A DNA stretch of 35,890 bases from Alphaproteobacteria bacterium (GTDB taxonomy: Bacteria > Pseudomonadota > Alphaproteobacteria > Acetobacterales > Acetobacteraceae). The notes beneath the pieces were generated by a model that saw only the letters and a program-made list of their open reading frames with translations, made no database searches and had not been told where the DNA came from. Below, in pieces: positions 12,994 to 33,795 of the stretch (position 1 is its first letter; each line of letters begins with the position of its first letter). Both the position numbers and the translations under genes were made by a program. The stretch lies in assembly GCA_026400815.1 (NCBI GenBank), contig JAPLOI010000045.1, positions 1 to 35,890 on the forward strand, written 5' to 3'.

Positions 12994-13614
12994 TCAGGCG
13001 GCGGGCGGGGCGATCGCCCAGGGTTCGGCCTGCGCGCGCGCGGTGCGGAAGCTGGCGATGGCGGCGGCGCGTTCGCGGGTGAGGTCGATATCGTCCCAGC
13101 CGTTGAGCAGCTGGGTGCGGCGGACCGGGTCGATGCTGAACGGGATGGTCTGGCCGCCGGCGGTGATGGTGCAGGCTTCGAGATCCACCTGGAGCTGCGT
13201 GTCGTTGGCGGAGTCCAGCCAGGCCAGCAGCGTGGCGGCATCCTCCTCGCTGACGCGGGCGGGAAGCAGGCCGTTCTTGACGGCGTTGGAGGCGAAGATG
13301 TCGCCGAAGCTGGGAGCGATCACGCAGCGTATGCCGTAATCCCACAGCGCATACACGGCGGCTTCGCGGGAGGAGCCGGAGCCGAAGTTGCGGCCGCCCA
13401 CCAGCACCTTTGCGCCGGCATGGCGCGGGGTGTTGAGGACGAAATCCGGGCGTGGGGCGCCGGCCTCGTCGAAGCGCAGATCGTGCAGCAGTACCGGCCC
13501 GTAGCCCTCGGCGCGCGAGCGCTTCATGAAGCGGGCGGGGATGATCTGGTCGGTATCAACATTGTCGAGCGCCAGCGGGGCGGCGGGGGCGGAGAGGGTG
13601 GTGAAGCGGTCCAT
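12994..13614 (-). CDS. leuD: Aconitase-family hydratase, small (LeuD-type) subunit
   Basis: A 206-residue swivel-domain protein with LeuD marks: NVDTDQIIPARFMKRS near the N-terminus and GGRNFGSGSSREAAVYAL (residues 73-90) followed by DYGIRCVIAPSFGDIFASNA. With LeuC it forms a 4Fe-4S hydro-lyase. The loop normally reading SSREHA has Ala in place of His, unlike the leucine-pathway enzyme as I know it, which hints at another substrate. The gene starts 3 bases after leuC stops. No leuA or leuB is near; it closes a catabolic operon with a C-C lyase and HyuAB, so a role in hydrating a maleate-type diacid is more likely than leucine synthesis (inference). Confidence 0.88.
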   Translation of the reverse strand: MDRFTTLSAPAAPLALDNVDTDQIIPARFMKRSRAEGYGPVLLHDLRFDEAGAPRPDFVLNTPRHAGAKVLVGGRNFGSGSSREAAVYALWDYGIRCVIAPSFGDIFASNAVKNGLLPARVSEEDAATLLAWLDSANDTQLQVDLEACTITAGGQTIPFSIDPVRRTQLLNGWDDIDLTRERAAAIASFRTARAQAEPWAIAPPAA

Positions 13615-13617
13615 GGC

Positions 13618-14997
13618 TCAGCGCTCCAGCGGGGGGTAGTCGCGCACATCGGCGAGATGGCCGGCGATGGCGGCGGCGGCGGCCATGGCGGGGGACATGA
13701 GATGGGTGCGCGCGCCCTGGCCCTGCCGGCCGCGGAAGTTGCGGTTGGTGGTGGAGGCGCAGCGCTGGCCGGAGGCGATGAGGTCGCCGTTCATGCCCAC
13801 GCACATGGAGCAGCCGGAATCCGCCCATTCCAGGCCCGCATCGAGAAAGACAGTGTGCAGGCCTTCGGCTTCGGCGGCCTGCTTGATCAGGGTGGAGCCC
13901 GGCGAGACCAGGCCCGGCACGGCGGCGCGGCGGCCGCGCAGCACGGCGGCGGCGGCGCGCAGATCCTCCAGCCTTCCGTTGGTGCAGGAGCCGATGAAGA
14001 CGCGATCCACGGGAATGCCGACCAGGCGCTGGCCCGGCGCGAGGCCCATATAGGCGAGCGCGTCGGCCAAAGCGGGTGCGTCCGGCACGCGGGCGGTGAT
14101 CGGCAGGGCGTCTTCCGGGCTGGTGCCGAAGGTGACGGTGGGGGCGATGGCGGCAGCGTCGATCGCCACCTCGCGGTCGAAGCTGGCACCTTCGTCCGTG
14201 GCCAGGCTGCGCCACAGGGCGATGGCGCGGTCGAGATCGGCGCCGCTTGGGGCGTGGGGCCGGCCGGCGAGATAGGCGAAGGTGGTGTCGTCTGGCGCCA
14301 CCAGCGCGCTGCGGGCGCCGGCCTCGATCGACATGTTGCAGAGCGTGAGCCGGGATTCCATCGATAGCGTGCGGATCGCCTCGCCCTGGTATTCCACGGC
14401 ATGGCCATGCGCGCCGTTGGCGCCGACGGTGGCGATCACGTGCAGTGCGAGATCCTTGGCGGTGACATGCGGGCCGAGCGGGCCGCGCACGGCGATGCGC
14501 ATGCGCTTCGGCTTCTTCTGCCACAGCGTCTGCGTCATCAGCACATGGGCCACCTCGGAGGCGCCGATACCGAAGGCCAGCGCGCCGAAGGCGCCATGGG
14601 TGGAGGTGTGGCTGTCGCCGCAGACCACGGACAGGCCCGGCAGGGTGAGGCCCTGTTCCGGCCCCACCACGTGCACGATGCCCTGGGCGGGATCATCGAG
14701 CCCGTAGAGGCGGAAGCCGTGGCGGGCGGTGTTGTCCGACAATTGCGTGACCATGCCTGCAATACCGGCATCGGCGATGGCGGGGCGGCCGCGCGTGGGC
14801 ACGTAGTGGTCGGCCACGCCGAAGGTGAGGCCGGGTTCGGCGAGCCCTGCGTTGCGGGCGGCCACGGCGCGGAAGGCGTGGTGGGAGCCCTCATGCACGA
14901 AGTGGCGGTCGATCCAGAGCAATGCCTCGCCATCCTCGCGCTCGGCGACGACGTGGCTGTCCCACAGCTTGTCGAACAGGGTGCGTGGCGTGCTCAT
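13618..14997 (-). CDS. leuC: Aconitase-family hydratase, large (LeuC-type) subunit
   Basis: A 459-residue protein, normal for LeuC. It opens with TLFDKLWDSHVV and carries VVCGDSHTSTHGAFGALAFG (about residues 124-143). The three 4Fe-4S ligands are Cys338 (GSCTNG), Cys396 and Cys399 (SGCSMCVG). The C-terminus has NRNFRGRQGQGARTHLMSPA. It catalyses stereospecific addition or removal of water on a 2- or 3-hydroxy di- or tricarboxylate in the cytosol. The ATG at 14997 overlaps the stop of the isochorismatase-fold gene (ATGA). Context, without leuA/leuB and beside an ICL/PEPM lyase, recalls dimethylmaleate hydratase (DmdAB) of nicotinate fermenters. The symbol reflects homology, not proven leucine biosynthesis. 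Confidence 0.9.
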   Translation of the reverse strand: MSTPRTLFDKLWDSHVVAEREDGEALLWIDRHFVHEGSHHAFRAVAARNAGLAEPGLTFGVADHYVPTRGRPAIADAGIAGMVTQLSDNTARHGFRLYGLDDPAQGIVHVVGPEQGLTLPGLSVVCGDSHTSTHGAFGALAFGIGASEVAHVLMTQTLWQKKPKRMRIAVRGPLGPHVTAKDLALHVIATVGANGAHGHAVEYQGEAIRTLSMESRLTLCNMSIEAGARSALVAPDDTTFAYLAGRPHAPSGADLDRAIALWRSLATDEGASFDREVAIDAAAIAPTVTFGTSPEDALPITARVPDAPALADALAYMGLAPGQRLVGIPVDRVFIGSCTNGRLEDLRAAAAVLRGRRAAVPGLVSPGSTLIKQAAEAEGLHTVFLDAGLEWADSGCSMCVGMNGDLIASGQRCASTTNRNFRGRQGQGARTHLMSPAMAAAAAIAGHLADVRDYPPLER

Positions 14998-15608
14998 GCC
15001 GCGTTCACCTCCGCCAGCATTTCCGCCACGGTGGCGACGCGGCCGACGGGGCGCAGCGCGTCGATGGCGGTGCGATGCACCTCCGGCGTGAAGGCGGCGC
15101 AGCCATCCTCCAGCACGATGGCATCGATGTCGCGCACATGGGCGTCGCGCACGGTGGAGGCAACGCCGCCATTGGTGACGATGCCGGCGACCAGAAGCCG
15201 GGTGATGCCGAGCTTGCGCAGCACCCATTCCAGCCGGCTCATGTAGAACGCCGAGTAGGCGACCTTTTCCACCATCACATCGATCGGCTGCAGCGCGTCC
15301 ACCGTGGCCTGGCCCCAGCTGCCGGGCGCGAAATCGCCGCTTGTGAGGAAGGGGCGGATGGCCTTGAGGTGCGGCGAGATGATGGGCTCGCCGCCGCGGC
15401 CCGGCACCAGGGTGAAGTGGGAGGCGACGACCGGCATGCCGCGGGCGCGCGCGGCCTGGGCGAGCGGGGCCAGCCGGGCGGGCAGGGCGGCGATTTCCGG
15501 CGTGCCGAGGCCGGCGCGGCCATAGGCGCCATCGGGGTGGATGAAGTCGTTCTGCAGGTCCGCCAGCAGCAGGGCGGTGGTGCCGAGGTCGAGTTTCGCT
15601 TGTGCCAT
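14994..15608 (-). CDS. Isochorismatase-fold hydrolase lacking the catalytic Cys
   Basis: A 204-residue protein of the cysteine hydrolase/isochorismatase superfamily, whose members include nicotinamidase, maleamate amidase, RutB and N-carbamoylsarcosine amidase. Asp17 (LLLADLQNDF) and Lys115 (EKVAYSAF) of the usual Asp-Lys-Cys triad are present. The nucleophile position reads GIVTNGGVAST, so Gly148 replaces Cys. The isochorismatase PhzD also lacks Cys, so hydrolysis of an enol ether or activation of water remains possible, but ordinary thioester-based amidase chemistry does not. The ATG at 15608 overlaps the hyuA stop (TGATG); a GTG one codon earlier is an alternative. It lies inside the catabolic operon between hyuA and leuC. 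Confidence 0.88.
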   Translation of the reverse strand: MAQAKLDLGTTALLLADLQNDFIHPDGAYGRAGLGTPEIAALPARLAPLAQAARARGMPVVASHFTLVPGRGGEPIISPHLKAIRPFLTSGDFAPGSWGQATVDALQPIDVMVEKVAYSAFYMSRLEWVLRKLGITRLLVAGIVTNGGVASTVRDAHVRDIDAIVLEDGCAAFTPEVHRTAIDALRPVGRVATVAEMLAEVNAA

Positions 15609-17665
15609 CACGCGCGCTCCACGATCAGGTTGCCGAGGGGATCGACGCGGCCGATGAGGCCCGGGTCGATGACGGTGGTGGCATCCGGCTGTTCCAGCAC
15701 GGCGGGGCCGGGGATGGCGGCGCCGACGGGCAGCAGCAGGCGGTCGTAGATTGCGCTGTCGTGCCAGGCGCCGTCGAAATACACCGGCCGGGTGCCGCGA
15801 TGCGCAGCGGCGAGCGAGGCTTCCGGCCCCGGAGCGAGGGCGGCGAGATCGAAATGCGGGCGGCGGCCGATCGCTGCGGTGCGCAGGTTGACGATGCGCA
15901 CGGGGATGCCGGGGAGCAGGCGGGAGAAGCTCTGGCGGTAGGCGGCCTCGAAGGCGGTGCGCACGGTGGGTGCGTCGATGCCGATGGTGCCGCCCTGCAG
16001 CGTGACCGGCAATGGCACCGAAACGGTGTGAGTCTGGCCCTCGTAGTGCATGTCCAGCTCGTAGGCGATCTCGATGCCATCGACCTGCAGGCCGGAGGCG
16101 GCGACGACGGCATGGGCGGCCTGGCCGGACTGGGCCATGCGGGCATCCAGGGCGGCGGCGTCCAGCCGGTCCAGCGAGAGGTTCACGGTGGCGACTTCGT
16201 CGTGGCGGATATCGGCGATGATGCAGCCGAGGGCGGAGGTGATGCCGGGGTAGCGCGGCACCAAAGCGGCGCGCAGGCCGACATCGCGCAGCAGGGCGCC
16301 CACGTGCAGCGCACCGCCGCCGCCGAAGGGCACGGCGGTGAAGCGGGCCGGGTCGTGGCCGCGCTCGATCGACACCAGGCGGATGGCGCCGGCCATGCGG
16401 GCATTGGCCACGCGCACGATGGCCTCCGCGGCGGCTTCCGGGGAAAGGCCGAGGGGTTTGCCGATGCGTTCGGCGATGGCCGTGCGGGCGGCCGCGATGT
16501 CCAGCCGTGCCAGCTTGCCGCCGATCGGGCGTTCCGCGTTGATGCGGCCGAGGACGAGGTTGGCATCTGTCAGCGTCGGGCGGTCATTGCCCTGGGCGTA
16601 GCAGACCGGGCCAGGGCGAGAGCCGGCGCTTTCGGGGCCCACGGCCAGCAGCCCGCCGGGGTCGACATGGGCGATGGAGCCGCCGCCGGCGCCGATGGTG
16701 GTGATCTCGATCATCGGCGTGCGCACGACCAGGCCGAAATCGATGGTGGTTTGCGCGGCCAACGCCGCCTTGCCGCCGGCCACCAGCGAGACATCGAAGG
16801 AGGTGCCGCCGAGATCGGCGGTGACGATATCGGCATAGCCCGCGGCGGATGCGATGGCCGCGGCGGCGATCACGCCCGCGGCGGGGCCGGAAAGCGCGGT
16901 GCGCACTGGCAGGCGGGCGGCGGTTTGCGTGCTCATCACGCCGCCATTGGATTGCACGATGTGGAAGGAGCCGACGAAACCGTGCTGCGCCAGGCCCGCT
17001 TCCAGCTTGCCGAGATAGCTGGCGACAACGGGCTGCAGATAGGCGTTGAGCACGGTGGTGCAGGTGCGCTCGAACTCACGGATTTCCGGCAGCACCTGGG
17101 CGGAATGGCCGAGATGGGCGTTGGGCCAGATTTCGCGCGCGGCCTCATGGGCGGCGCGTTCGTTGGTGGGGTTGGCGTAGGCGTTGATGAACACGATGGC
17201 CAGCGCCTCGCAGCCCATGTGCAGCAGGCGGGTGGCGGCTTCGCGCACCGCGGCGAGGTCCACCGCGGTGCGGATGATGCCGTCGGCCAGGGTTCGCTCC
17301 GGCACTTCCAGGCGCAGCTCGCGCGGGATGACGGGTTCGAAATCGCCCCACAGGCCCCAGGTATGCGGCCGGTCGCGGCGGCGCATCTCCAGCGCGTCGC
17401 GGAAGCCGGGGGTGGTGATGAGGCCGACGCGCGCGCCCTTGCGTTCCAGCAGCGCATTGGTGCCGACGGTGGTGCCATGGACGATGGCGCCCAGGGTGGC
17501 GATGGGGCCGAGGCGGGACAGGCCCTCGATGAAGCCCAGCGCCTCGTCGCCGCGGTTGGAGGGCGCCTTGGCGATGCGGAATTCGCGCGTGGCTTCGTCG
17601 AAGCAGGCGAGGTCGGTGAAGGTGCCGCCGACATCAACGCCCACCAGGATGCGGGCGGCGCTCAT
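15608..17665 (-). CDS. hyuA: Hydantoinase/oxoprolinase subunit A
   Basis: A 685-residue HyuA protein of the ASKHA ATPase fold, normal length. The phosphate-binding motif ILVGVDVGGTFTDLACFD is at the N-terminus, followed by HGTTVGTNALLERKGARVGL and a second nucleotide motif TADLGGTSFDVSLV. With HyuB it forms an ATP-dependent enzyme. Known members open hydantoins, 5-oxoproline or N-methylhydantoin rings, or carboxylate acetone or acetophenone. It overlaps hyuB by ATGA upstream and the isochorismatase-fold gene downstream. In this operon a ring-opening (lactam or imide) role fits best, but carboxylation is not excluded from sequence. No third, biotin or gamma-type subunit is seen, which slightly favours hydrolysis. 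Confidence 0.92.
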   Translation of the reverse strand: MSAARILVGVDVGGTFTDLACFDEATREFRIAKAPSNRGDEALGFIEGLSRLGPIATLGAIVHGTTVGTNALLERKGARVGLITTPGFRDALEMRRRDRPHTWGLWGDFEPVIPRELRLEVPERTLADGIIRTAVDLAAVREAATRLLHMGCEALAIVFINAYANPTNERAAHEAAREIWPNAHLGHSAQVLPEIREFERTCTTVLNAYLQPVVASYLGKLEAGLAQHGFVGSFHIVQSNGGVMSTQTAARLPVRTALSGPAAGVIAAAAIASAAGYADIVTADLGGTSFDVSLVAGGKAALAAQTTIDFGLVVRTPMIEITTIGAGGGSIAHVDPGGLLAVGPESAGSRPGPVCYAQGNDRPTLTDANLVLGRINAERPIGGKLARLDIAAARTAIAERIGKPLGLSPEAAAEAIVRVANARMAGAIRLVSIERGHDPARFTAVPFGGGGALHVGALLRDVGLRAALVPRYPGITSALGCIIADIRHDEVATVNLSLDRLDAAALDARMAQSGQAAHAVVAASGLQVDGIEIAYELDMHYEGQTHTVSVPLPVTLQGGTIGIDAPTVRTAFEAAYRQSFSRLLPGIPVRIVNLRTAAIGRRPHFDLAALAPGPEASLAAAHRGTRPVYFDGAWHDSAIYDRLLLPVGAAIPGPAVLEQPDATTVIDPGLIGRVDPLGNLIVERA

Positions 17666-19398
17666 GCCGTTGCTCCCGCGCGCAGGGCGGCGGTGGCGGC
17701 TGCGTCGATGGTGCCGTCGGTGGAGACCGCAACGGCGTAGTCGCGGGCGGCGGAGGCTGGTGAGACGAAGCCGCGCAGCACGTCGCGCGCCACCTGTGCG
17801 GGCGGGCGGGTGCGCGGGTTGCCATGGCCGCCGCCGCCGGGGGATTCCAGGCGCAGGCGCTCACCCTGGCGCAGGCGAACGCCGGTGATCTTGCTGGCCA
17901 TGGGCGGGGAGGCAGGGCCCTCAGGCGTGTCGTAGATGAAACGGTTGAGCGCCGCGGGGCCGCCGCCATCCACGCCGAACGGGGCGTAGCGGCCGCGTTC
18001 GCCCAGCAGGGACACGTCGGCGCCGCCGGGGGCGAGCACCTCCACCTCATACACCGCGCCGACGCCACCGCGGTGGCGGCCGGGGCCGGCGCTGTCTGGC
18101 CGCAGGGCCCATTGGGTGAACATGACGGGGTAGGAGGCTTCCAGGATTTCCGCCGGCGGAATGGTGGCGGTGGAGATAGGGTTGTTGGCGTGATTGAGGC
18201 CATCGGACTCCGGGCTCGCGCCCAGGCCGCCGCCGAAGAAGCAGAACATCACGAAGCGGTCGCCACTGGCGCGATGGCCCGCCACCGAAAGCGCGTTGAT
18301 GGTGCCGAAGGGGGCGGCGGTGGCGCGGGCCGGGTCCGCCTGGGCGATGGCGCCGAAGACCACGCCGATCATGCGCAGGATGGTCTCGGTATAGCCCGCC
18401 ACCGGGCGCGGGGCGCTGACGCCGAGGAAGGTGGTGCCGGAGATGACGAATTCGATCGGCGCCAGGCACCCGGCATTGGCCGGAACTTCGCTGAACACAT
18501 GCTTCAGCGCCACGTAGCAGCAGGCCACCGCGGTGGCGTGGGAGATGTTGACCGGGCCGAGGCAGGGTGGGGAGGTGCGGGAGAAATCCAGCACCATGCG
18601 GTCGCCTGCGATGATCATGTCGAGCGCGATGGTCAGGCGCTCATCCACGATGCCGTCATTGTCCAGGTAGTCCTCGAAGGAATAGGTGCCGTCTGGCAAC
18701 TTGGCGATGTTGGCGCGCATCAGCGCCTCGGCGCGGGCGGAGGCGGCCTGCAGGGCGGCGGCCACCACATCGTCACCGTATTCGTCGATCAGGGCGTGGA
18801 AGCGCCGCTCGCCTAGATCGAGCGCGTTGAGCTGGCCGTTGAGGTCGCCCCAGTTGCTGCGCGGCAGGCGGGAATTGGCGGCCAGGATATCCACTACATC
18901 CTGCTGCAGCACCCCGGCGCGCAGCAGCTTCACCGGCGGGATCAGCACGCCTTCCTGGAAGCTTTCGGTGGCGCGCGGGTTGTAGCCGCCCGGCACGTTG
19001 CCGCCGATATCCAGCCAGTGGCCCACCGAGGCGAGCCAGGCATAGACCCTTCCGCCGCGCATCAGCGGGCGCACCAGGCGGAAATCGTTCAGATGCGTGC
19101 CGCCGGCATAGGGATCGTTGAAGATGAAGGTGTCGCCTTCATCGATGCCATTGGCGCCCACCTTGTCGATCACCGCCTTCACCGCGAAGGCCATGGCGCC
19201 GACGAAGATCGGCAGGCCCTTGGAGCCCTGCACCAGCGTGGCCCCGGTGGTGGCGTGGTACAGGCCGTGGCAGGCGTCCCGCGCCTCCGCGATGATCGGG
19301 TTGAAGGCGGAACGGTAGAGCGTGGCGTCCATCTCGTCGGCGATCTGCTCCAGGCGGCCGGTGAGGATGGCGAAGGTGACGGGATCGAGCGCGCTCAT
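17662..19398 (-). CDS. hyuB: Hydantoinase/oxoprolinase subunit B
   Basis: A 578-residue HyuB protein. Family features: the N-terminal ALDPVTFAILTGRLEQIADE, the metal and substrate region RSAFNPIIAEARDACHGLYH, FNDPYAGGTHLNDFRLVRPL, VGHWLDIGGNVPGG, and the C-terminal glycine-rich ESPGGGGHGNP. It pairs with HyuA, whose start overlaps its stop (ATGA). Its own ATG overlaps the stop of the C-C lyase gene (ATGA). The order B then A is on the same strand as the transporter. Substrate specificity cannot be deduced; the linked importer of the amino-acid/amide class suggests a small polar cyclic amide. Confidence 0.92.
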   Translation of the reverse strand: MSALDPVTFAILTGRLEQIADEMDATLYRSAFNPIIAEARDACHGLYHATTGATLVQGSKGLPIFVGAMAFAVKAVIDKVGANGIDEGDTFIFNDPYAGGTHLNDFRLVRPLMRGGRVYAWLASVGHWLDIGGNVPGGYNPRATESFQEGVLIPPVKLLRAGVLQQDVVDILAANSRLPRSNWGDLNGQLNALDLGERRFHALIDEYGDDVVAAALQAASARAEALMRANIAKLPDGTYSFEDYLDNDGIVDERLTIALDMIIAGDRMVLDFSRTSPPCLGPVNISHATAVACCYVALKHVFSEVPANAGCLAPIEFVISGTTFLGVSAPRPVAGYTETILRMIGVVFGAIAQADPARATAAPFGTINALSVAGHRASGDRFVMFCFFGGGLGASPESDGLNHANNPISTATIPPAEILEASYPVMFTQWALRPDSAGPGRHRGGVGAVYEVEVLAPGGADVSLLGERGRYAPFGVDGGGPAALNRFIYDTPEGPASPPMASKITGVRLRQGERLRLESPGGGGHGNPRTRPPAQVARDVLRGFVSPASAARDYAVAVSTDGTIDAAATAALRAGATA

Positions 19399-20270
19399 TC
19401 GCTGCCCTCGTAGGATTTGCCGAGGGCGAGCATCTCGGGCGTACCGATCACCTCGTTCAGCGCATCGAAATCGAACATGCGGTTGCGGAAGGCGGCGGTG
19501 GAGCCATCCTGCACCAGGGTGGCGTAGAAATCCCGTGCGGCATGGGCGATGGCCCGGGCGATGCCGCCGGGGAAGATCACCAGGGCGTATCCGAGGGCCT
19601 CCAACTCCGGGGCGGAGAACACCGGCGTCTTGCCGCCCTCCACCATGTTGGCCATCAGCGGCAGCTTGCCGCCGAGGGCCGTGGCGACGGCCGAAAGTTG
19701 ATCGCGCGAGCCCGGCGCCTCCACGAACAGGACATCTGCACCAGCCTCGGCGTAGAGGTTGGCACGATCGAGCGCGGCGGCGAGGCCTTCCACCGCGATG
19801 GCATCGGTGCGGGCGATGATGAGGGTATCCTGGCTGGCGCGCGCATCGGTGGCGGCACGGATCTTGCCGGCCATCTCCGCTGCCGGGATCAGGCGCTTTT
19901 CCGACAAGTGGCCGCAGCGCTTGGGGTAGGACTGGTCTTCCACCTGCAGCGCGCCGGCGCCGGCGCGTTCGAACAGCCGCACGGTACGCTGCATGTTGAG
20001 CGCGTTGCCGTGGCCGTTATCGGCATCCACCACCAGCGGCAGCGCCACGCGATCGTGGATCAGCGCGATGGTCTCGGCCATCTCGGTCATCGAAACCAGG
20101 CCGATATCGGGCCGGCCCAGGCGGGTGTAGGCCACCGCGGCACCGGAGACATACAGCGCCTCCGCCCCAGCACCCTCGGCCAGGCGCGCGGTGAGCGGAT
20201 CATACACGCCCGGGGCCAGCAGGATCGGCCGGCGGTGCAGCCGTGCCTTCAGCGTCTCGTTCTCTTGCAT
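19395..20270 (-). CDS. Isocitrate lyase/PEP mutase-family C-C lyase
   Basis: A 291-residue TIM-barrel protein, the size of methylisocitrate lyase (PrpB) and 2,3-dimethylmalate lyase. Mg-binding acids are visible in LVVDADNGHGNALN (Asp82, Asp84). The mobile catalytic loop is YPKRCGHL with Cys119, a mark of true lyases; the oxaloacetate decarboxylase branch lacks it. The reaction expected is retro-Claisen cleavage of a 2-hydroxy-dicarboxylate to pyruvate or glyoxylate plus a carboxylic acid. It begins 11 bases after livF stops and overlaps hyuB (ATGA). Beside a LeuCD-type hydratase it forms a hydratase-lyase pair like dimethylmaleate hydratase/dimethylmalate lyase. PrpB activity is an alternative, but no prpC or prpD is near. 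Confidence 0.9.
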   Translation of the reverse strand: MQENETLKARLHRRPILLAPGVYDPLTARLAEGAGAEALYVSGAAVAYTRLGRPDIGLVSMTEMAETIALIHDRVALPLVVDADNGHGNALNMQRTVRLFERAGAGALQVEDQSYPKRCGHLSEKRLIPAAEMAGKIRAATDARASQDTLIIARTDAIAVEGLAAALDRANLYAEAGADVLFVEAPGSRDQLSAVATALGGKLPLMANMVEGGKTPVFSAPELEALGYALVIFPGGIARAIAHAARDFYATLVQDGSTAAFRNRMFDFDALNEVIGTPEMLALGKSYEGSE

Positions 20271-20281
20271 GGCCACGCCAC

Positions 20282-20998
20282 TCACAATCCCAGGTAGGTC
20301 GTCATCAAGGTCGGGTCGCGCCGCAGCGCCTCGGCGGGGCCGCTCATTGCCACCGCGCCGTTCTCCAGCACATAGGCACGGCCGGCGAGATCCAGCGACT
20401 GCACCACGTTCTGCTCCACCAGCATCACGGCCAGGCCCTCCGCGGCGATGCGGGCGATGAGGGTGAACATCTCCTCCACCAGCAAGGGGGAGAGGCCGAG
20501 CGACGGCTCGTCCATGATCAGCAGGCGGGGCTCCGCCATCAGGCCGCGGCCGATTGCCAGCATCTGCTGCTCCCCGCCGGAGAGGGTGCCGGCGAACTGG
20601 CGCTTGCGTTCGGCCAGGCGCGGAAAGATGGCGAACACACGGGCCAGGTTGGCGGCGCGGCGAGCCCGGGCGCGGCGATAGCTGCCCAGCTCCAGGTTCT
20701 CCTGCACGCTCATGTTGGGGAAGATGCGCCGGCCTTCCGGCACATGGATCAGGCCGGCAGCGACGATATCGGCGGCGTCGCGCCCCACAAGCTCGGTGCC
20801 CTCGAAGCGGATGGAGCCGGCGCCGGGGCGGATCAGGCCGGAGAGGCAACGGTTGAGCGTGGTCTTGCCGACGCCGTTGGCGCCAAGAACCGCCACCACC
20901 TCGCCGGCGGCGACATCCAGCGAGACGCCGCGCAGCACCGGCACGCCGCCATAGCCGGCCACGAGATCCCTTACCTCAAGCATGGGCACCTCAAGCAT
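20282..20998 (-). CDS. livF: Branched-chain amino acid-type ABC transporter ATPase LivF
   Basis: A 238-residue ABC ATPase of the LivF class. Walker A is GANGVGKTT, the signature LSGGEQQMLAIGRG, and Walker B LLIMDEPSLGLSP; HVPEGRRIFPNMSVQENL is typical of LivF. It powers the importer with LivG. The start is ambiguous because the beginning is duplicated (MLEVPMLEV): ATG at 20998 has GGAGG 5 bases upstream and overlaps the livG stop, while ATG at 20983 has its own GAGG. I chose 20998. A TTG at 21013 is also in frame. Confidence 0.92.
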   Translation of the reverse strand: MLEVPMLEVRDLVAGYGGVPVLRGVSLDVAAGEVVAVLGANGVGKTTLNRCLSGLIRPGAGSIRFEGTELVGRDAADIVAAGLIHVPEGRRIFPNMSVQENLELGSYRRARARRAANLARVFAIFPRLAERKRQFAGTLSGGEQQMLAIGRGLMAEPRLLIMDEPSLGLSPLLVEEMFTLIARIAAEGLAVMLVEQNVVQSLDLAGRAYVLENGAVAMSGPAEALRRDPTLMTTYLGL

Positions 20999-21740
20999 CG
21001 GCCCCTCCGGCAAGGCGGCGCGCGGCGCCGTGGCCGAGATAGGCTTCCACCACCTTCGGATCGCGCGCGATCTCGGCGGGCGTGCCGTGGGCGATCATGC
21101 GGCCCTGGGCGATGACGTGCACGGTGTCGCACAGGCTCATCACCGCCTGCATCACGTGCTCCACCATCAGGATGGTGACGCCGTCGTCGCGGATGCGGCG
21201 CACCACCGGCAGCATGTCGCGGATCTCCGACGGGTTCAGGCCGGCGAGCACCTCGTCCAGCAACAGAAGGCGCGGTTCCGTGGCCAGGGCGCGGGCCATT
21301 TCCAGCCGCTTGCGGCCCGCCACGGTCAGCGCGCCGGCCGGGCGATCGAGCAGCGGGCCGAGGCCCACCGCCTCCCCCACCGCAGTGGCGCGGGCCATGG
21401 CCTCGCCGCGGCTGGGGTGGCGCAGGAAGGCGCCGACGGCGATGTTCTCGCGCACGGAAAGGCCGGCGAAGGGTTGCACGATCTGGAAGGTGCGCGCGAT
21501 GCCGCGCAGGGCGCGCGTGTGGGCGGGCAGGGCGGTGACGTCCTCGCCGGCGAACGCAACGCTGCCGGCATTGGCGGTCTGGAATCCGGCGATCACGGTG
21601 AAGAGCGTGGTCTTGCCGGCGCCGTTCGGGCCGATCAGGCCGGTGATGGTGCCCGGCGCCACATCCAGCGCAGCGTCGTCCACGGCCACCAGGCCACCGA
21701 AGCGCATGGTCACGCCGCGCACCTGCAGCAGCGCGCTCAT
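20991..21740 (-). CDS. livG: Branched-chain amino acid-type ABC transporter ATPase LivG
   Basis: A 249-residue ABC ATPase of the LivG class: Walker A GPNGAGKTT, Q-loop region RTFQIVQPFAGLSVRENIAV, and Walker B LLLLDEVLAGLNPSE. The C-loop reads LTVAGRKRLEMARAL instead of the usual LSxGQ, and the Walker B ends DEV instead of DEP. I believe this variant occurs in a LivG subgroup, so the protein is probably active. The ATG at 21740 overlaps the livM stop (ATGA), and its end overlaps the livF start. The C-terminal AYLGHG is the usual LivG ending. Confidence 0.93.
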   Translation of the reverse strand: MSALLQVRGVTMRFGGLVAVDDAALDVAPGTITGLIGPNGAGKTTLFTVIAGFQTANAGSVAFAGEDVTALPAHTRALRGIARTFQIVQPFAGLSVRENIAVGAFLRHPSRGEAMARATAVGEAVGLGPLLDRPAGALTVAGRKRLEMARALATEPRLLLLDEVLAGLNPSEIRDMLPVVRRIRDDGVTILMVEHVMQAVMSLCDTVHVIAQGRMIAHGTPAEIARDPKVVEAYLGHGAARRLAGGADA

Positions 21741-22711
21741 ACCGGCCGCCGCAGCAGGCGGCGCACATTCGCGCCCAGGCCCAGCAGGCCGCGCGGCGCG
21801 AAGGCAACGCAGAGGATCAGCAGCACGCCGAACACCACGAGGTCCACGCCCGGCACCGCGCCGCCGAGTGCGTGGCCCAGGGCGATCTTGGTGGCCTCGC
21901 CCAGACCGAGCAGCACCAGCGCGCCCACCAGCGGGCCGAACACCGTGCCGAGCCCGCCGATGATCGGGGCCAGCAGCGCCTCCACCGAGATCCAGGAGCC
22001 ATAGGCGATGCCGGCATCGAGATAGAGAAACTTCTGCGCGTAGAGCCCGCCGGCCAGGGCGGTGATGCCGCTGGAGAGCGTGATGGCGCGCAGCTTCACC
22101 GCCAGGCTGTCCACGCCCAGCGCGCGCGCGGCCTCCTCGTTCTCGCGCACCGCCACCAGCCAGGCGCCGAAGCGGGCGCGCGCCATGGCCTGGGTGAGCA
22201 CCAGCCCGGCGGCTACGCAGGCGAGCACCAGCCAGTAGAAGGTGGCGCGGTCGGCAAACTGCATGTTTGCGGCCTCGATGCGCAGCGGCACCAGCACGCC
22301 GGCCGCACCCCCGGTAAAGCCCCAGGCATTGGCCAGGATGCGGAACACCTCGGCAAAGGCCAGTGTTACGAGCGCGAAATAGGACCCGCGCAGCCGGGCG
22401 CGGAAGCTCAACGCGCCGATTGCCGCACCCACCGCGGCGCCCATCAGCGTGGCCAGCGGCAGCGCCAGCCAGGGGTTGATCCCGAAGCGCACCTGCAGCA
22501 GCGCCATGCCATAGGCGCCGGTGCCGAAGAACGCGGCATGCCCGAAGGAGAACTGCCCGCCATAGCCGCCCAGGATGTTCCACCCCTGCGCCGCCAGCGC
22601 CACGATCAGCGCGAAGCTGAGGAAGTTGAGCGTGGTGTTGGAGGAGGTGCCGAGCGGCAGCACCGCCAGCACGGCGACCGCAATGGCGATGGGGAGATAG
22701 CTGCTTCTCAT
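21737..22711 (-). CDS. livM: Branched-chain amino acid-type ABC transporter permease LivM
   Basis: A 324-residue inner-membrane permease with many hydrophobic helices. LivM marks are present: GGYGGQFSFGHAAFFGTGAY near the N-terminus, the cytoplasmic coupling segment RARFGAWLVAVRENEEAARA followed by LGVDSLAVKL, and GGLGTVFGPLVGA in the last third. It pairs with LivH to form the channel. Start and stop both overlap neighbours (ATGA with livH upstream and livG downstream), so stoichiometric translation is likely. Confidence 0.94.
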   Translation of the reverse strand: MRSSYLPIAIAVAVLAVLPLGTSSNTTLNFLSFALIVALAAQGWNILGGYGGQFSFGHAAFFGTGAYGMALLQVRFGINPWLALPLATLMGAAVGAAIGALSFRARLRGSYFALVTLAFAEVFRILANAWGFTGGAAGVLVPLRIEAANMQFADRATFYWLVLACVAAGLVLTQAMARARFGAWLVAVRENEEAARALGVDSLAVKLRAITLSSGITALAGGLYAQKFLYLDAGIAYGSWISVEALLAPIIGGLGTVFGPLVGALVLLGLGEATKIALGHALGGAVPGVDLVVFGVLLILCVAFAPRGLLGLGANVRRLLRRPV

Positions 22712-23580
22712 GCGCGGGCCCCGAACAGGCCGGTGGGCCGGGCCAGCAGCACCAGGATGAAGATCAGGAAGATGCCGATCTGGCCGAGGCTTTCGCCGAG
22801 ATACAGGCCGGAAAGGCTCTCCACCACGCCCACGAACAGCCCCCCGATCAACGCGCCAGGGATGGAGCCCATGCCGCCGAGCACCACGATGGTGAAGGCC
22901 ACGAGCACGAAGGCGTTGCCGATGCGGGGGTTGACCAGGAAGGTGGGCATCAGCAGGCAGGCCGCCACGGCCAGGCACGCGGCGCCAAGGCCGAAGGTGA
23001 CGGCGTAGATGTGCTCCACCCGCACGCCCACCAGCGCCGCGCCGGTCTTCTCCTTCGCCACCGCGCGGATGGCCCGCCCGGTATCGGTGCGGGCCAGCAG
23101 CAGCCACAGCAGGGCTGCCACCACGAAGCTGCCGGCGAAGGCCACGAGCTTCGGCGTGGAGAGGAACAGGTTGCCGACTTCCACCACGGAGAAGCCGTAG
23201 GGCACGTCGATGGAGCGGGTGTCGGACCGGAAGCCGGCGAGCAGGGCGTTCTCCATGATGATGGAAAGCCCCAGCGTGACGAGCAGGATGTTGGAATCGT
23301 CGCCATGGCTGGCCGGGCCGATCACCCAGCGCTGCACCATGTAGCCCAGCGCGAAGAAGATCGCGGCGAGCCCCGGCAGGGCCAGGTAGGGATCGACCCC
23401 CAGCGCGGCGTGGGCCACGTACACGGCATACATTGCCGCCGTCAGCGTGGCGCCATGGGCGAAGTTGATGATGTGCAGCACGCCGTACACCAGCGTCAGC
23501 CCCAGCGCGACGAGGGCGTACACGGCGCCCATCATCAGGCCGTTGGCCATCGCCGAGAGGAAGATGTCGAGTGGCAGCAT
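22708..23580 (-). CDS. livH: Branched-chain amino acid-type ABC transporter permease LivH
   Basis: A 290-residue permease of the LivH class. Marks: ALGLTLVYGVLHIINFAHGA in the first third, TDTGRAIRAVAKEKTGAALV as the coupling helix, and VVLGGMGSIPGALIGGLFVG near the end. It follows the binding-protein gene after 40 bases that contain a strong hairpin; the Shine-Dalgarno-like GGGG of livH is part of the hairpin's 3' arm, so its translation may be lowered relative to the binding protein. The stop overlaps the livM start (ATGA). Confidence 0.94.
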   Translation of the reverse strand: MLPLDIFLSAMANGLMMGAVYALVALGLTLVYGVLHIINFAHGATLTAAMYAVYVAHAALGVDPYLALPGLAAIFFALGYMVQRWVIGPASHGDDSNILLVTLGLSIIMENALLAGFRSDTRSIDVPYGFSVVEVGNLFLSTPKLVAFAGSFVVAALLWLLLARTDTGRAIRAVAKEKTGAALVGVRVEHIYAVTFGLGAACLAVAACLLMPTFLVNPRIGNAFVLVAFTIVVLGGMGSIPGALIGGLFVGVVESLSGLYLGESLGQIGIFLIFILVLLARPTGLFGARA

Positions 23581-23587
23581 GATGCTT

Positions 23588-23612
23588 GCCCCGGGCCAGG
23601 GTGGCCCGGGGC
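23588..23612 (-). terminator. Perfect 11-bp hairpin between livK-type gene and livH
   Basis: GCCCCGGGCCA and TGGCCCGGGGC are perfect complements around a 3-base loop. No T-run follows in the direction of transcription, so full termination is unlikely. Such hairpins after a binding-protein gene usually protect the upstream mRNA from 3' decay and raise the ratio of binding protein to permease. The 3' arm contains the only GGGG-type ribosome site of livH. Confidence 0.65.
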
Positions 23613-23620
23613 GGATCCGA

Positions 23621-24826
23621 TCAGGTGGCCGGGAAGACGGGCTTGGCGTCGGCGAAGGCGTCGGGGAAGATCACCTTGATGTCGCCGCCCTGCACCTGGG
23701 TGTTCACCGGGGCTGCGCCCATGTTCTGGCCCTTCTCGAACCTGGTTGGCCCATACGGCATGATGTGCCCGGCGAAGCTGGAGCTGGCCAGCGCGGCGGT
23801 GATCTTGTCGCGGTCGGTGGAACCGGCGCGCTCGATCGCATCGGCGAGCAAGGCGACGCAGGAGTAGTTGAGCGGGGTGTTGTAGAGCCAGAAGCGCCCA
23901 CCGGCCTCGGCCTTGGCGCGCACCGCGGCGGTCTTGGGCTTGCGCGGGTCGGCCCAGTGGTTGCAGTCCATCACCAAATTGGCCGCATCCGCGAATTCCT
24001 TCACGAAGCGGAAGTTGGAGGCGGCGCCGTTCAGGATGGCATACACGCCCTTTGGCCGGATGCGCTGCTGCTGCATGGTGCGGGCGAGCAATACGAATTC
24101 GGAATAGTAGCTGGAGGGGATCACCAGGTCTGGGTTCAGCGCGCGGATGCGCAGCGCCACGTTGGACATGTCACGCGAGGGCGTGGGGTGCGCGATGGTT
24201 TCCAGCACCTGGAAGCCGCGCGGCGGCAGCTGGTCGTTCAGCAGCTTGGCCATGCCGGAGCCGAACAGCCCATCTTCATGCACGATCACCACGGTTTTCG
24301 CCGGCTTGCCCGCCGCGTCGTTCAGCTTCACCAGGTTTTCCAGCGCGGTGGAGGTGACGATGCCGAAGCCCGGCCCGAAGCGGAAGGTGTTGGCAAGGCC
24401 ACGCCCCACGATCGCGTCGGAAACGCCGACGTCGCAGATATACGGAATGTCGTAGCGCGACGCGGCCTGCGAGGCGGCGAGCACGATGGGCGAGGCGAAG
24501 CCGCCGACGATGGCGGCCACCTTTTCGCCCTGCATGCGCTCCACTTCCTGCGTGCCGCCCTCTGGCGTGGAGCGGGCGTCGCCGAACACCATCTCCAGCT
24601 TGGCGCCGCCGAGGGACTTGATGCCGCCGGCCGCGTTGATCTCATCCAGCGCGATCTGCGCGCCGAGGCGGCCATATTCGCCATCCTGGGCCAGCGCGCC
24701 GGTGACGGGCTGCAGGATGCCGATCTTCACGGCGGCGGGCTGGGCGCGCAGGATCGCGGGCATGGCGAGCACGCCACCCGCGGCGGCAGCGCCGCCCAGG
24801 AGGGTGCGGCGGGTCGACTGGCTCAT
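23621..24826 (-). CDS. ABC transporter substrate-binding protein, branched-chain amino acid/amide type
   Basis: A 401-residue periplasmic binding protein of the LivK/AmiC class (type I fold). The signal peptide is Tat-like (STRRTLLGGAAAAGGVLAMP, cut after LRA). The mature part begins with VKIGILQPVTGALAQDGEYG and has IALDEINAAGGI, typical of this class, then VGGFASPIVLAASQAASRYD (ligand pocket region). The start at 24826 has AAGGAGA 5 bases upstream and overlaps the stop of the GntR gene (ATGA). It should define what the operon imports; this class binds amino acids, short amides, urea and aromatic acids. Placement next to HyuAB supports an amide-like or small carboxylate solute. Confidence 0.93.
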   Translation of the reverse strand: MSQSTRRTLLGGAAAAGGVLAMPAILRAQPAAVKIGILQPVTGALAQDGEYGRLGAQIALDEINAAGGIKSLGGAKLEMVFGDARSTPEGGTQEVERMQGEKVAAIVGGFASPIVLAASQAASRYDIPYICDVGVSDAIVGRGLANTFRFGPGFGIVTSTALENLVKLNDAAGKPAKTVVIVHEDGLFGSGMAKLLNDQLPPRGFQVLETIAHPTPSRDMSNVALRIRALNPDLVIPSSYYSEFVLLARTMQQQRIRPKGVYAILNGAASNFRFVKEFADAANLVMDCNHWADPRKPKTAAVRAKAEAGGRFWLYNTPLNYSCVALLADAIERAGSTDRDKITAALASSSFAGHIMPYGPTRFEKGQNMGAAPVNTQVQGGDIKVIFPDAFADAKPVFPAT

Positions 24827-25644
24827 GGCTGTCTCCTTCGGGGTTTGGCCGGTGCGCCGGCCGCTTTCGGGGGTGGGATGGGCGCGGGCGAGCTCGGCTC
24901 CCACCGGCGGGCACTGCCACCGCCGGTGCGGGTGAGTTCCATGTGGAAGGCGTGCTTGTCGGGCCGGTACAGCGCGGCCAGGTGCTCGATGCCGCGGCCT
25001 TCCGCATCCAGCACCACGCGGGTCATGGACAGCAGGGCGGAGCCCACCTCCACGCCCAGCGCCTCGGCTGCCTCTGGCCCGGCCAGCGTGGCGCTGATGG
25101 TCTGGTCGGCCTTGTCCGCCGCCACGCCGGATTGCTCCAGCAGGGCCAGCAGCGGCCTTGTGGCCAGATCGGCCTCCGAATAGGTGACGCCGATGCGCTC
25201 CGGCACGTGTGTTGAGAGAAACGAGAACGGAACATCGTCCAGATAGCGCACGCGCAGCGAATGCTGCGTGCGTTCGCCCGGCGCCAGGCGCAGCGCGCGG
25301 GCCACCGGCGCGGGCGGCACGCCGTAGGAGAAGGCGAGCAGCCGCACCCGCGTATCGCGCCCCATCTGCACCAGATGCGCCAGAACGTTGGACAGGTCGG
25401 CCACCATCGGCGCCTGGGCGGCCACGGGAGCCACGAAAGTGCCGGCGCCGGCGGCGCGGGTGATCAACCCTTCCTGCGCCAGGCCATCCAGCGCCCGGCG
25501 TACCGTTACGCGCGAAAGCCCATACTGCGCGGCCAAAGCCGGTTCGCTCGGCAGCCTCTGGTCCGGCGCCACCGCCCCGCTGGTGATCCGTTCCTTCAGC
25601 AGCAGATACAGCAGATGGGTCTTGGAGGTTTCCGCCGCGTGCAA
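24823..25644 (-). CDS. GntR-family transcriptional regulator, HutC/UTRA type
   Basis: A 273-residue regulator. The N-terminal winged helix is clear (LLYLLLKERITSGAVAPDQR, LPSEPALAAQYGLSRVTVRR, ALDGLAQEGLITRAAGAGTF), followed by a UTRA ligand domain (LRVRYLDDVPFSFLSTHVPE, GVEVGSALLSMTRVVLD). The tail is Pro/Arg-rich and probably disordered. I chose TTG at 25644, which has GGAAGG just upstream. The only in-frame ATG (25734) leaves 12 bases to the divergent gene and lies upstream of the predicted promoter. Its stop overlaps the binding-protein start, so regulator and operon are transcribed together and probably autoregulated through the CTGTAT sites. The effector is probably the imported substrate or an intermediate. 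Confidence 0.9.
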   Translation of the reverse strand: MHAAETSKTHLLYLLLKERITSGAVAPDQRLPSEPALAAQYGLSRVTVRRALDGLAQEGLITRAAGAGTFVAPVAAQAPMVADLSNVLAHLVQMGRDTRVRLLAFSYGVPPAPVARALRLAPGERTQHSLRVRYLDDVPFSFLSTHVPERIGVTYSEADLATRPLLALLEQSGVAADKADQTISATLAGPEAAEALGVEVGSALLSMTRVVLDAEGRGIEHLAALYRPDKHAFHMELTRTGGGSARRWEPSSPAPIPPPKAAGAPAKPRRRQP

Positions 25645-25694
25645 AGGCGCCTTCCCGGATTCGGTCCGGGGCGCGATTGCCCCACCCGACGATG

Positions 25695-25738
25695 CTGTAT
25701 TAAATGTATGCAGAATTCCGATCGTCAAGAACATACAG
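25695..25738. promoter_or_regulatory. Shared divergent promoter with candidate GntR operators
   Basis: CTGTAT at 25695 faces ATGCAG at 25708 (CTGyAT-N7-ATrCAG), and ATACAG at 25733 is a third half-site in inverted orientation. On the minus strand TTGACG (25728-25723) with a 17-18 base spacer leads to ATTTAA/TTTAAT. On the plus strand TTGCCC (25677) with 17 bases leads to TTAAAT (25700). The half-sites overlap both -10 regions, as expected for a repressor controlling the operon and the divergent FAD gene together. Promoter calls are by eye. Confidence 0.5.
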
Positions 25739-25746
25739 GTGGGCCC

Positions 25747-27180
25747 ATGCCACGCGTCGAGCCGGCCGAGGGGATCTCCTTCGAGGCCCATGCGCCCGTG
25801 CTGGTGATCGGCGCCGGCGCGGCCGGGTTGGTGGCGGCGCTGCGGGTGCGCGCGCTGGGGGCGGAGGTGCTGGTGCTGGAGCGCGATGCGGTGCCGCGCG
25901 GCTCCACGGCGCTGTCGGCCGGATTGATCCCTGCCGGCGGCACGCGGTTCCAGCGCACGGCCGGGATCGAAGACAGCCCCGCCCTGTTCGCCGCCGACAT
26001 CATGGCCAAGGCGCATGGCGAGCCCGCCCCCGCCGCGGTGGCACGCGTGGCCGAGACGATCGGCCCGGCCCTGGAATGGCTGGCAGACACCCACGGCCTG
26101 CCATTCTCGGTGGTGGAGAACTTCACCTATCCCGGCCATTCCGCGCGGCGCATGCACGGCCTGCCGACCCGCTCCGGCGCGGAGCTGATCGACCGGTTGC
26201 GCCAGGCTGCCGAGGCCGCCGGGGTTGCGATCATCACCGAGGCGACCGCAACCACCCTGTTCGCCGCGGCAGATGGCCGCATCGCCGGCGTCGGCATCAC
26301 CCGGCCGGATGGTTCGACAGACCGCATCGGCTGCGACGCGCTCGTGCTGGCCTGCAACGGCTATGGCGGCAACAAGGCGCTGGTGGCGCAACACATCCCC
26401 GGCCTGGCCGATGCGCTGTATTTCGGCCATGCCGGCAACCAGGGCGAGGCCCTGCTCTGGGGCGAGGCGCTGGGTGCGGCCGCGCGCGATCTGCCGGGGC
26501 ACCAGGGGCATGGCTCCGTGGCGCACCCGCACGGCATCCTCATCACCTGGGCCACGATCACCGAAGGCGGCATCCAGGTGGATACCCAGGGCCGCCGCTT
26601 CCACAACGAAGCCCGCGGCTATTCCGAAGCCGCGGCAGAGGTGATCGCGGCGCCGGGCGGCATCGCCTGGACCATCTTCGATGCCCGGATTGCCGGGATC
26701 GCCCGCCAGTTCGAGGATTTCCGCGCCGCCGAGGCCGCCGGTGCGATCCTGGCCGCCGACACGGTCGAAGACCTCGCCACCCGCACGCGGCTGCCGGTGG
26801 AAGCCCTCGCCGCGTCGCTGGCCGAGGCCGATGCGCTGCGGGCCCATGCCGGGCGCGACCGTTTCGGCCGGGATTTCGCGGGGCTGCCGCCCTTGGCCCC
26901 GCCCTATGCCGCGGTGAAGGTCACCGGCGCGCTATTCCATACCCAGGGCGGCCTGGTTGTGGACGGGCAGGCGCGGGTGCTGCGGTGCGGCGGCACCGCC
27001 TTTCCCAACCTGCTGGCGGCGGGCGGGGCAGCCTGCGGCCTGTCGGGCGCGCGGGCGGAGGGCTACCTGTCCGGCAACGGGCTCCTTAACGCGGTGGCCT
27101 ACGGGTTCCTGGCAGGCGCAGTCGCGGCGGAACTGGCGGCAGAGCGGGCTTCGGCAGGGGAATCACCACGGCCAGCGTGA
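25747..27180 (+). CDS. FAD-dependent oxidoreductase, fumarate reductase/tricarballylate dehydrogenase type
   Basis: A 477-residue flavoprotein. The FAD-binding Rossmann motif is VLVIGAGAAGLVAALRVRAL with Glu45 (LERD) to bind ribose; the second FAD segment is FPNLLAAGGAACGLSG, then GYLSGNGLLNAVAYG. The middle has GHGSVAHPHGILITWATITE and QGRRFHNEARGYSEAA, as in fumarate reductase-type flavoproteins (KstD, TcuA, FrdA-like). Such enzymes add or remove hydrogens next to a carboxylate or carbonyl. No signal peptide or haem site is present, so it is cytosolic. It is divergent from the GntR gene across a shared control region and probably supplies or consumes the unsaturated diacid handled by the LeuCD-type hydratase. 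The start follows GGGCCC; the ribosome site is weak. Confidence 0.9.
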   Translation: MPRVEPAEGISFEAHAPVLVIGAGAAGLVAALRVRALGAEVLVLERDAVPRGSTALSAGLIPAGGTRFQRTAGIEDSPALFAADIMAKAHGEPAPAAVARVAETIGPALEWLADTHGLPFSVVENFTYPGHSARRMHGLPTRSGAELIDRLRQAAEAAGVAIITEATATTLFAAADGRIAGVGITRPDGSTDRIGCDALVLACNGYGGNKALVAQHIPGLADALYFGHAGNQGEALLWGEALGAAARDLPGHQGHGSVAHPHGILITWATITEGGIQVDTQGRRFHNEARGYSEAAAEVIAAPGGIAWTIFDARIAGIARQFEDFRAAEAAGAILAADTVEDLATRTRLPVEALAASLAEADALRAHAGRDRFGRDFAGLPPLAPPYAAVKVTGALFHTQGGLVVDGQARVLRCGGTAFPNLLAAGGAACGLSGARAEGYLSGNGLLNAVAYGFLAGAVAAELAAERASAGESPRPA

Positions 27181-33669: not shown

Positions 33670-33795
33670 CACCGCATTCCCCCAAGCTGCCGGCCCAACT
33701 GGCGGTGATGGCCCCGCCGGGTCAAGGCATCCGCTTCACACCGGGCGGGATTGGCGCGATCCTGGCCGGAGCCGACCCCGACAAGGATTTCCTGC

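Follow-up and report, generated by a model that had tools for sequence, protein, structure and literature searches.

Nicotinate fermentation uses 2,3-dimethylmaleate hydratase (DmdAB) and dimethylmalate lyase, and is not known to involve HyuAB, an IsoC-type isochorismatase-fold protein, a flavoprotein of the present kind or Liv genes. Other described systems with related enzymes are the nic cluster, with maleamate amidohydrolase NicF and maleate isomerase NicE, the 2-methylcitrate cycle, with PrpD, AcnD and PrpB, and creatinine breakdown, where HyuAB occurs together with an isochorismatase-fold carbamoylase. Here we describe a window of 35,890 bases, one whole contig (JAPLOI010000045.1) of an Acetobacteraceae bacterium, in which the minus strand carries a gene set in the order GntR-LivKHMGF-PEPM/ICL-HyuB-HyuA-IsoC-LeuC-LeuD, with a flavoprotein gene divergent on the plus strand (Table 1). 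IsoC is our label for the isochorismatase-fold protein, and Liv, Hyu and Leu are used as names of families, not of functions. The set shares with nicotinate fermentation an aconitase-family hydratase paired with a lyase of the ICL/PEPM family, but the hydratase of the window is of the bacterial LeuCD type. The isochorismatase fold is common to the nic cluster, and a maleate-isomerase-like partner was present in 9 of 165 related loci; here, however, IsoC lacks the cysteine, and a hydratase and a lyase stand in place of isomerisation to fumarate. Many related loci likewise hold MmgE/PrpD-, aconitase- and PrpB-like members as in the 2-methylcitrate cycle, from which the window differs in that its lyase scores under the prpB cut-off. 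A literature search within open-access PMC found no description of this gene set. We propose, with a probability of about 0.38, that the genes work together in the catabolism of a small N-heterocycle, of which a substituted cyclic imide (succinimide or maleimide type) is the likeliest, by the full scheme given below. That the operon at least serves a ring-opening catabolism and ends in a hydratase-lyase module is probable.

The gene set recurs in many alphaproteobacterial families, far beyond chance. IsoC orthologues turned up in 59 of the 299 genomes sampled from the order, in 26 of 385 from the class and in 8 of 398 from the phylum, each count including the window's genome; one match from the phylum sample (G672) lay outside the Alphaproteobacteria. 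Neighbourhoods were taken from the order (58), from named loci (80, picked as the best among at least 535 relatives, hence biased toward close ones) and from the class and phylum samples (32). The resulting 170 loci include five contigs twice (L034/L112, L037/L150, L040/L148, L044/L175 and L145/L296), which leaves 165 distinct loci; gene counts below refer to these 165 and motif counts to the 170-locus set with its five repeats. Each locus stops about 10 kb from IsoC or where its contig ends, and some absences are cuts only. Genes in the relatives' loci were called by simple rules on third-position GC content (GC3) or by tblastn, so that their starts and the small genes cannot be relied on; open reading frames (ORFs) left without a label were scanned in part. 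HyuA was present in 148 loci, HyuB in 146, PEPM in 114, LivH in 108, the flavoprotein in 96, MmgE in 59 and a LeuC-type subunit in 55, followed by XDH-like (21), DmdA-type (16), maleate-isomerase-like (9) and monooxygenase (8) genes. A near-identical relative (95–99%) was found in a Rhodospirillales metagenome-assembled genome (L100). Many of the carriers are bacteria of soil or plants, and among the hosts with names are Azospirillum, Methylobacterium, Microvirga, Bosea and Rhodoplanes. LeuCD was found to sit divergently beyond GntR in three loci that were fetched again (L224, L225 and L226). The original prediction of one conserved catabolic system, for which confinement of the set to this strain was to count as a refutation, is supported by its presence in many other genomes across the Alphaproteobacteria, with the core order kept between families.

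The LeuCD pair of the window passes the cut-offs of both the leuC (617 over 560 bits) and the leuD model (188 over 116 bits). In a LeuC tree, the rows of which were labelled by identity before tree building, the window copy fell into a clade (support 0.972) that took in 54 of 54 cluster copies and none of the 16 other LeuC proteins from related genomes. The window's genome contains a second LeuC (C49), beside LeuD and an Iso_dh (LeuB) gene. The original prediction was to be refuted if the pair was the sole LeuCD of the genome and grouped with leucine enzymes; neither was the case. The Fe-S cysteines of LeuC were kept in 55 of 56 loci, one not being covered, and the LeuD loop following DTDQIIP reads GYG in most cluster proteins versus TGLG in most others. 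Among 12 canonical LeuC loci examined as a control, one had a PEPM homologue and none had Hyu, IsoC, flavoprotein or MmgE matches.

Of the 32 class and phylum loci, 16, from 14 families, carry an aconitase-family large subunit of HacA/DmdA type next to the matching small subunit. Four of these large subunits scored 445, 459, 457 and 455 bits with TIGR02086 (cut-off 410), and the small subunits of L287 and L290 scored 169 and 155 bits with TIGR02087 (cut-off 109). The small subunit of the window reached 74.5 bits with the latter model and does not score as the DmdB type, although DmdAB-type pairs do occur in the 16 related loci. No locus held both large subunits (LeuC type 55, DmdA/HacA type 16 of 165). 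This mutual exclusivity speaks for a needed hydration step, although the positions give no one-for-one swap with LeuCD: the DmdAB-type pairs follow LivF (9), GntR (3) or the edge of the visible stretch (4), with MmgE in one of the 16 loci, and LeuC follows IsoC, the flavoprotein or a CaiB-type CoA-transferase, or is divergent. The DmdAB-type pairs may replace MmgE, or both MmgE and LeuCD.

The KxCGH motif carries the catalytic cysteine in lyases of the ICL/PEPM superfamily. In the lyase studied here RCGH was present in 118 of 118 loci, preceded by Lys in 117 and by Arg in one. The window protein scored 283 bits with the prpB model, under the cut-off of 354 for methylisocitrate lyases, and its nearest structures in the PDB were methylisocitrate lyase (186 bits), petal death protein (184 bits), further methylisocitrate lyases and dimethylmalate lyase (156 bits). 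Petal death protein acts on 2-ethyl-3-methylmalate. A phosphonate-related reading of the PEPM protein was dropped in view of the KRCGH motif and the prpB-like scores, and the view of hydratase and ICL/PEPM-type lyase as a module is supported.

HyuAB resembles caprolactamase CapAB, 5-oxoprolinase and N-methylhydantoinase in its two subunits, ATP motifs and metal tetrad. Both DxGGT phosphate motifs and the GxxPGP adenosine motif of HyuA are intact, each position being conserved in 149–151 of 153 loci with the rest not covered, and the metal tetrad of HyuB (D41-H102-D105-H127) was kept in 150 of 151 loci, one not being covered. These ATP motifs and the Asp-His-Asp-His tetrad have been mapped in caprolactamase, as described in PMC8453981. 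HyuAB differs from CapAB in its neighbours and in its scores of 507 and 298 bits, against CapA and CapB cut-offs of 1000, and in the PDB HyuA was closest to N-methylhydantoinase (415 bits) and then to 5-oxoprolinase. The assignment to the ATP-dependent type is upheld by the intact motifs, and ATP-driven ring opening is likely to be the reaction of the pair.

The assignment of nitrogen release to the isochorismatase-fold protein conflicts with its active site. At the catalytic cysteine position (148), Gly was found in 167 and Ala in three of the 170 loci, with Cys in none, as had first been seen in 59 sequences; the Lys was kept in all 170 and the Asp in 168, two not being covered. IsoC thus departs from the Asp-Lys-Cys triad of the cysteine amidohydrolases (NicF, RutB and N-carbamoylsarcosine amidohydrolase) and, in lacking the cysteine of carbamoylsarcosine amidohydrolase, from the N-methylhydantoin (creatinine) pathway. 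By analogy with EntB, which hydrolyses a vinyl (enol) ether, it may act on an enamine. Its nearest relatives by sequence and fold were the triuret and ureidoacrylate hydrolases, together with Escherichia coli YecD and a putative isochorismatase (3kl2); the predicted model (mean pLDDT 78.6 with nine sequences, TM-scores near 0.7) adds little to the sequence. YecD, an isochorismatase-fold protein described as being of unknown function (PMC4519933), is alike in its Asp-Lys-Gly triad and in its sequence and fold matches; IsoC differs from it in scoring only about 70 bits and in having HyuA nearby (148/165 loci). The same triad is reported for both YecD and EntB in PMC12553813; in the lactamase and amide tests made there wild-type YecD showed no activity, and a G145C variant showed some. 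Given that IsoC has the triad of YecD and EntB and that YecD was inactive in those tests, a deamidation step does not follow from the family name, and a nitrogen-releasing role of IsoC appears doubtful from its residues. Hydrolysis of maleic-type half-amides, the N-alkylmaleamic acids, is reported to be aided by their own carboxylate (PMC3913492), and such assistance could make the cysteine dispensable.

An IsoC homologue with TNTAV, that is, with Ala at the Cys site, ends a 2-aminoethylphosphonate-type cluster in L089 and L090; the scan of L089 gave a class-V aminotransferase, a phosphodiesterase-family hydrolase, an ALDH and a PhnV-like permease. In L049 an HpcH/HpaI-like gene adjoins IsoC, with a sarcosine oxidase alpha-like gene nearby, and L051 has the same gene order.

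The flavoprotein scored 226 bits with TIGR01813, below the cut-off of 285, and well above the cut-off of FAD_binding_2; its nearest structures were fumarate reductase (169 bits) and urocanate reductase (156 bits). It was present in 96 of 165 loci, an acyl-CoA dehydrogenase with a CaiB CoA-transferase in three, and both in none. In these three loci (L280, L283 and L302) the two genes lie between IsoC and LeuC, in the place of the missing flavoprotein; the CaiB protein of L280 scored 537 bits with the succinate-glutarate CoA-transferase model (cut-off 750), and L289 has the CoA-transferase only. The pair hints, thinly, at a second route to diacid desaturation. The predicted role of the flavoprotein as diacid desaturase is weakly favoured by this replacement.

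In a minority of loci the gene content suggests a link with N-heterocycles and with acids of the maleate type. A monooxygenase and a maleate-isomerase-like protein occurred together in 7 of 165 loci, and the monooxygenase was nearest to PnpA and HspB in the two loci tested. In L120 and L179 IsoC lies with PEPM, GntR and LeuCD, and in L121 with LeuCD; each of the three has an NMT1-type binding protein, a flavin monooxygenase and a maleate-isomerase-like protein and no close HyuAB, with distant HyuAB homologues in L120. In L054, L056, L057, L061, L063 and L075 the Liv-IsoC group is accompanied by an isomerase-like gene (6/6), a monooxygenase (4/6) and an XDH-like molybdoprotein (5/6). The MmgE/PrpD gene found in 59 of 165 loci always comes after LivF (e.g. 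L059:4602–5993), and its nearest solved relatives are Bacillus subtilis IRG1, IDS epimerase and cis-aconitate decarboxylase. None was found in the window operon, and three such genes lie elsewhere in the window's genome. The possibility that MmgE/PrpD is a mere stand-in for LeuCD was rejected, as both were present together in 27 of 165 loci.

For the individual reactions, their order and the class of substrate we infer the following scheme. LivKHMGF would import the N-heterocycle, and HyuAB would open its ring at the expense of ATP to give a half-amide. IsoC may help ammonia release to a substituted succinate, with the half-amide's own carboxylate possibly replacing the cysteine; the flavoprotein would then desaturate the succinate to a maleate-type diacid, LeuCD would hydrate this to a malate analogue, and the ICL/PEPM-type lyase would split the latter into a 2-oxo acid and a short carboxylate, with the operon under the presumed control of GntR. 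No deaminase or aminotransferase was found among the thirteen genes, and an imide is preferred over a lactam because the route has to yield a diacid and to shed its nitrogen with no deaminase. As an outline, ring opening, formation of a diacid, desaturation, hydration and C–C cleavage agree with the data, and nitrogen release by IsoC is doubtful. PMC7318184 cites reports of maleimides and hematinic acid in senescent leaves and in lake sediments; in the samples described in that paper itself, hematinic acid was present and maleimides were absent. A natural substrate of the imide kind exists, and for the operon it is a candidate only. The more specific version, in which a widespread alphaproteobacterial pathway degrades alkyl-succinimides or -maleimides, the end fragments of chlorophyll and haem, by ATP-driven ring opening, a Cys-free half-amidase of isochorismatase fold that draws on the carboxylate of its substrate, desaturation, LeuCD/DmdAB hydration and a petal-death-protein-like lyase, is improbable.

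Several observations weigh against the imide scheme. Maleamate amidohydrolase NicF has the cysteine, so carboxylate assistance leaves its loss in IsoC unexplained, and IsoC shares its triad with wild-type YecD, inactive in the lactamase and amide tests reported in PMC12553813. The cyclic imidases that PMC9304392 names are of another fold. The flavoprotein could be a reductase, and the swap for an acyl-CoA dehydrogenase was seen in three genomes, all of one genus (g303). MmgE/PrpD is left unexplained, lying with LeuC in 27 of 165 loci and being absent from the window operon. The DmdAB-type pairs occupy the place between LivF or GntR and PEPM that MmgE takes elsewhere, not that of LeuCD. No hydratase of either type was found in 94, no desaturase in 66 and no PEPM in 51 of the 165 loci, many of which are cut.

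Nor is the LeuC clade tied to IsoC: by eye comparison, 33 of 200 genomes had a close LeuC, and 12 of these 33 had no IsoC. Nine of the 12 were fetched, and a PEPM homologue was found nearby in three. L210 contains GntR, PEPM, TctC, TctA and LeuCD as well as a weak match to TctB, and some 6 kb on it has homologues of HyuAB (31 and 43%); L212 contains GntR, PEPM, TctA and LeuCD. These sets, combining LeuCD of this clade with PEPM, GntR and Tct importer genes, resemble a module for the use of diacids. Among eight more copies of the clade, from genomes with IsoC, one had a PEPM homologue and three had HyuAB homologues (HyuA 40–41%).

Four of the alternatives keep the operon together with another chemistry. 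If the substrate were a hydantoin, HyuAB would give an N-carbamoyl amino acid, IsoC would remove the carbamoyl group in the manner of N-carbamoylsarcosine amidohydrolase, and the skeleton would pass through hydratase and lyase. The similarity of HyuA to N-methylhydantoinase, the triuret, biuret and ureidoacrylate hydrolases among the PDB neighbours of IsoC and the known pairing in creatinine breakdown count for this route, but the cysteine is absent from IsoC in all loci, the amino acid produced would need a deaminase, of which the thirteen genes hold none, and hydration of the LeuCD or DmdAB type suits an amino acid poorly; it is unlikely, if the least so of the alternatives. A similarly unlikely reading is that a pyridine or pyrrole is oxidised by other enzymes and that HyuAB and IsoC act late, on a lactam, imide or half-amide, as in aerobic breakdown of nicotinate or nicotine. 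PnpA/HspB-nearest monooxygenase, maleate-isomerase-like, XDH-like or LigB genes lie near IsoC, in varying combinations, in ten loci (L054, L056, L057, L061, L063, L075, L120, L121, L179 and L295), which agrees with such a route; however, just 8 of 165 loci have the monooxygenase, and no such genes were found among the window proteins scanned. Rather unlikely is also the opening of an unsaturated lactam by HyuAB to an enamine or imine, which IsoC would hydrolyse in the manner of isochorismatases, Asp protonating the C=C bond before attack by water, to ammonia and an oxo acid. The Asp-Lys-Gly triad common to IsoC and EntB (PMC12553813) and the oxygenase genes near IsoC in some loci fit this proposal, but IsoC scores closer to amide and ureide hydrolases and YecD than to EntB or PhzD, and the oxo acid has no obvious path to a maleate-type acid. 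HyuAB could also be an ATP-dependent carboxylase of the acetone/acetophenone type, the operon then handling a ketone. The two belong to the same superfamily, and HyuA scores 293 bits with the ApcC and 168 bits with the ApcA model, but the top scores are those of a lactamase model and a hydantoinase structure, the carboxylase models lie far under their cut-offs, and the metal residue at position 41 is Asp, which CapB and acetophenone carboxylase also have, acetone carboxylase being reported to have Glu. Because of these scores and the metal residue the carboxylase assignment, which is hardly credible, was dropped.

A loose assembly of catabolic genes, the order of which has no single-pathway meaning, would explain the variable content, as MmgE, XDH, monooxygenase, PEPM and flavoprotein genes come and go. 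The tight overlaps, the core order kept across families and the exclusivity of LeuC and DmdA speak against this, and we regard it as very improbable.

All named genes were found where they had been predicted, each with a Pfam match (Table 1). The layout of twelve genes under GntR and one divergent gene also holds, except that the twelve minus-strand genes already include the regulator. Neighbouring genes share about 4 bases at each of seven joints (GntR/LivK, LivH/LivM, LivM/LivG, PEPM/HyuB, HyuB/HyuA, HyuA/IsoC and IsoC/LeuC), and for several the likely start lies downstream of the first ATG or GTG (LeuC about 14997, lyase about 20270, flavoprotein about 25747).

Table 1. Genes of the predicted catabolic system in the window, with supporting matches.
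Feature	Position	Strand	Matches and remarks
GntR/HutC-type regulator, UTRA domain	24823..25734	-	Pfam GntR 69 bits, UTRA 104; start 25734 (ATG) or 25644 (TTG)
LivK-type binding protein	23621..24826	-	Peripla_BP_6 158 bits
LivH-type permease	22708..23580	-	BPD_transp_2 118 bits
LivM-type permease	21737..22711	-	BPD_transp_2 133 bits
LivG-type ATPase	20991..21740	-	ABC_tran 89 bits, BCA_ABC_TP_C 48
LivF-type ATPase	20282..21013	-	ABC_tran 103 bits
ICL/PEPM-superfamily C-C lyase, KRCGH motif	19395..20270	-	PEP_mutase 154 bits
HyuB, metal subunit, predicted ATP-dependent lactam/imide/hydantoin hydrolase	17662..19398	-	Hydantoinase_B 552 bits
HyuA, ATP-binding subunit	15608..17665	-	Hydantoinase_A 286 bits
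IsoC, isochorismatase fold, Asp17-Lys115-Gly148	14994..15611	-	Isochorismatase 138 bits
LeuC-type large subunit, putative catabolic hydratase	13618..14997	-	Aconitase 500 bits
LeuD-type small subunit	12994..13614	-	Aconitase_C 92 bits; TIGR00171 188 bits
Flavocytochrome-c/urocanate-reductase-like flavoprotein, putative diacid desaturase	25747..27180	+	FAD_binding_2 154 bits; start 25747 or 25708

An AT-rich imperfect palindrome at about 25690–25710, between the divergent starts of GntR and the flavoprotein, is a candidate operator. When it was sought upstream of GntR in 38 loci, for many of which wrong stretches were taken, a correctly placed match was found in the window's copy only. A promoter and terminator scan gave about as many sites as shuffled sequence, or fewer. 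An SBP_bac_5 binding protein is encoded on the same strand 81 bases past LeuD (11338–12912, minus strand) and may belong to the system; homologues (about 47%) lie near IsoC on the opposite strand in L055, L060, L069, L070, L072 and L078. On the plus strand, an ORF of 606 amino acids without Pfam match (27374–29194) adjoins the flavoprotein gene, and a gene at 33751–35469 with an N,N-dimethylformamidase beta subunit C-terminal domain (241 bits) adjoins an MFS gene.

By score, these genes pass as leucine biosynthesis, hydantoinase and isochorismatase genes, labels that are probably misleading. The Cys-free isochorismatase-fold partner offers a starting point for working out what the Asp-Lys-Gly (YecD-like) group does, and a conserved set for which no substrate has been described points to a gap in current knowledge of soil and leaf catabolism. 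If the pathway did degrade alkyl-succinimides or -maleimides, it would act as a biological sink for the final tetrapyrrole fragments that still contain nitrogen.

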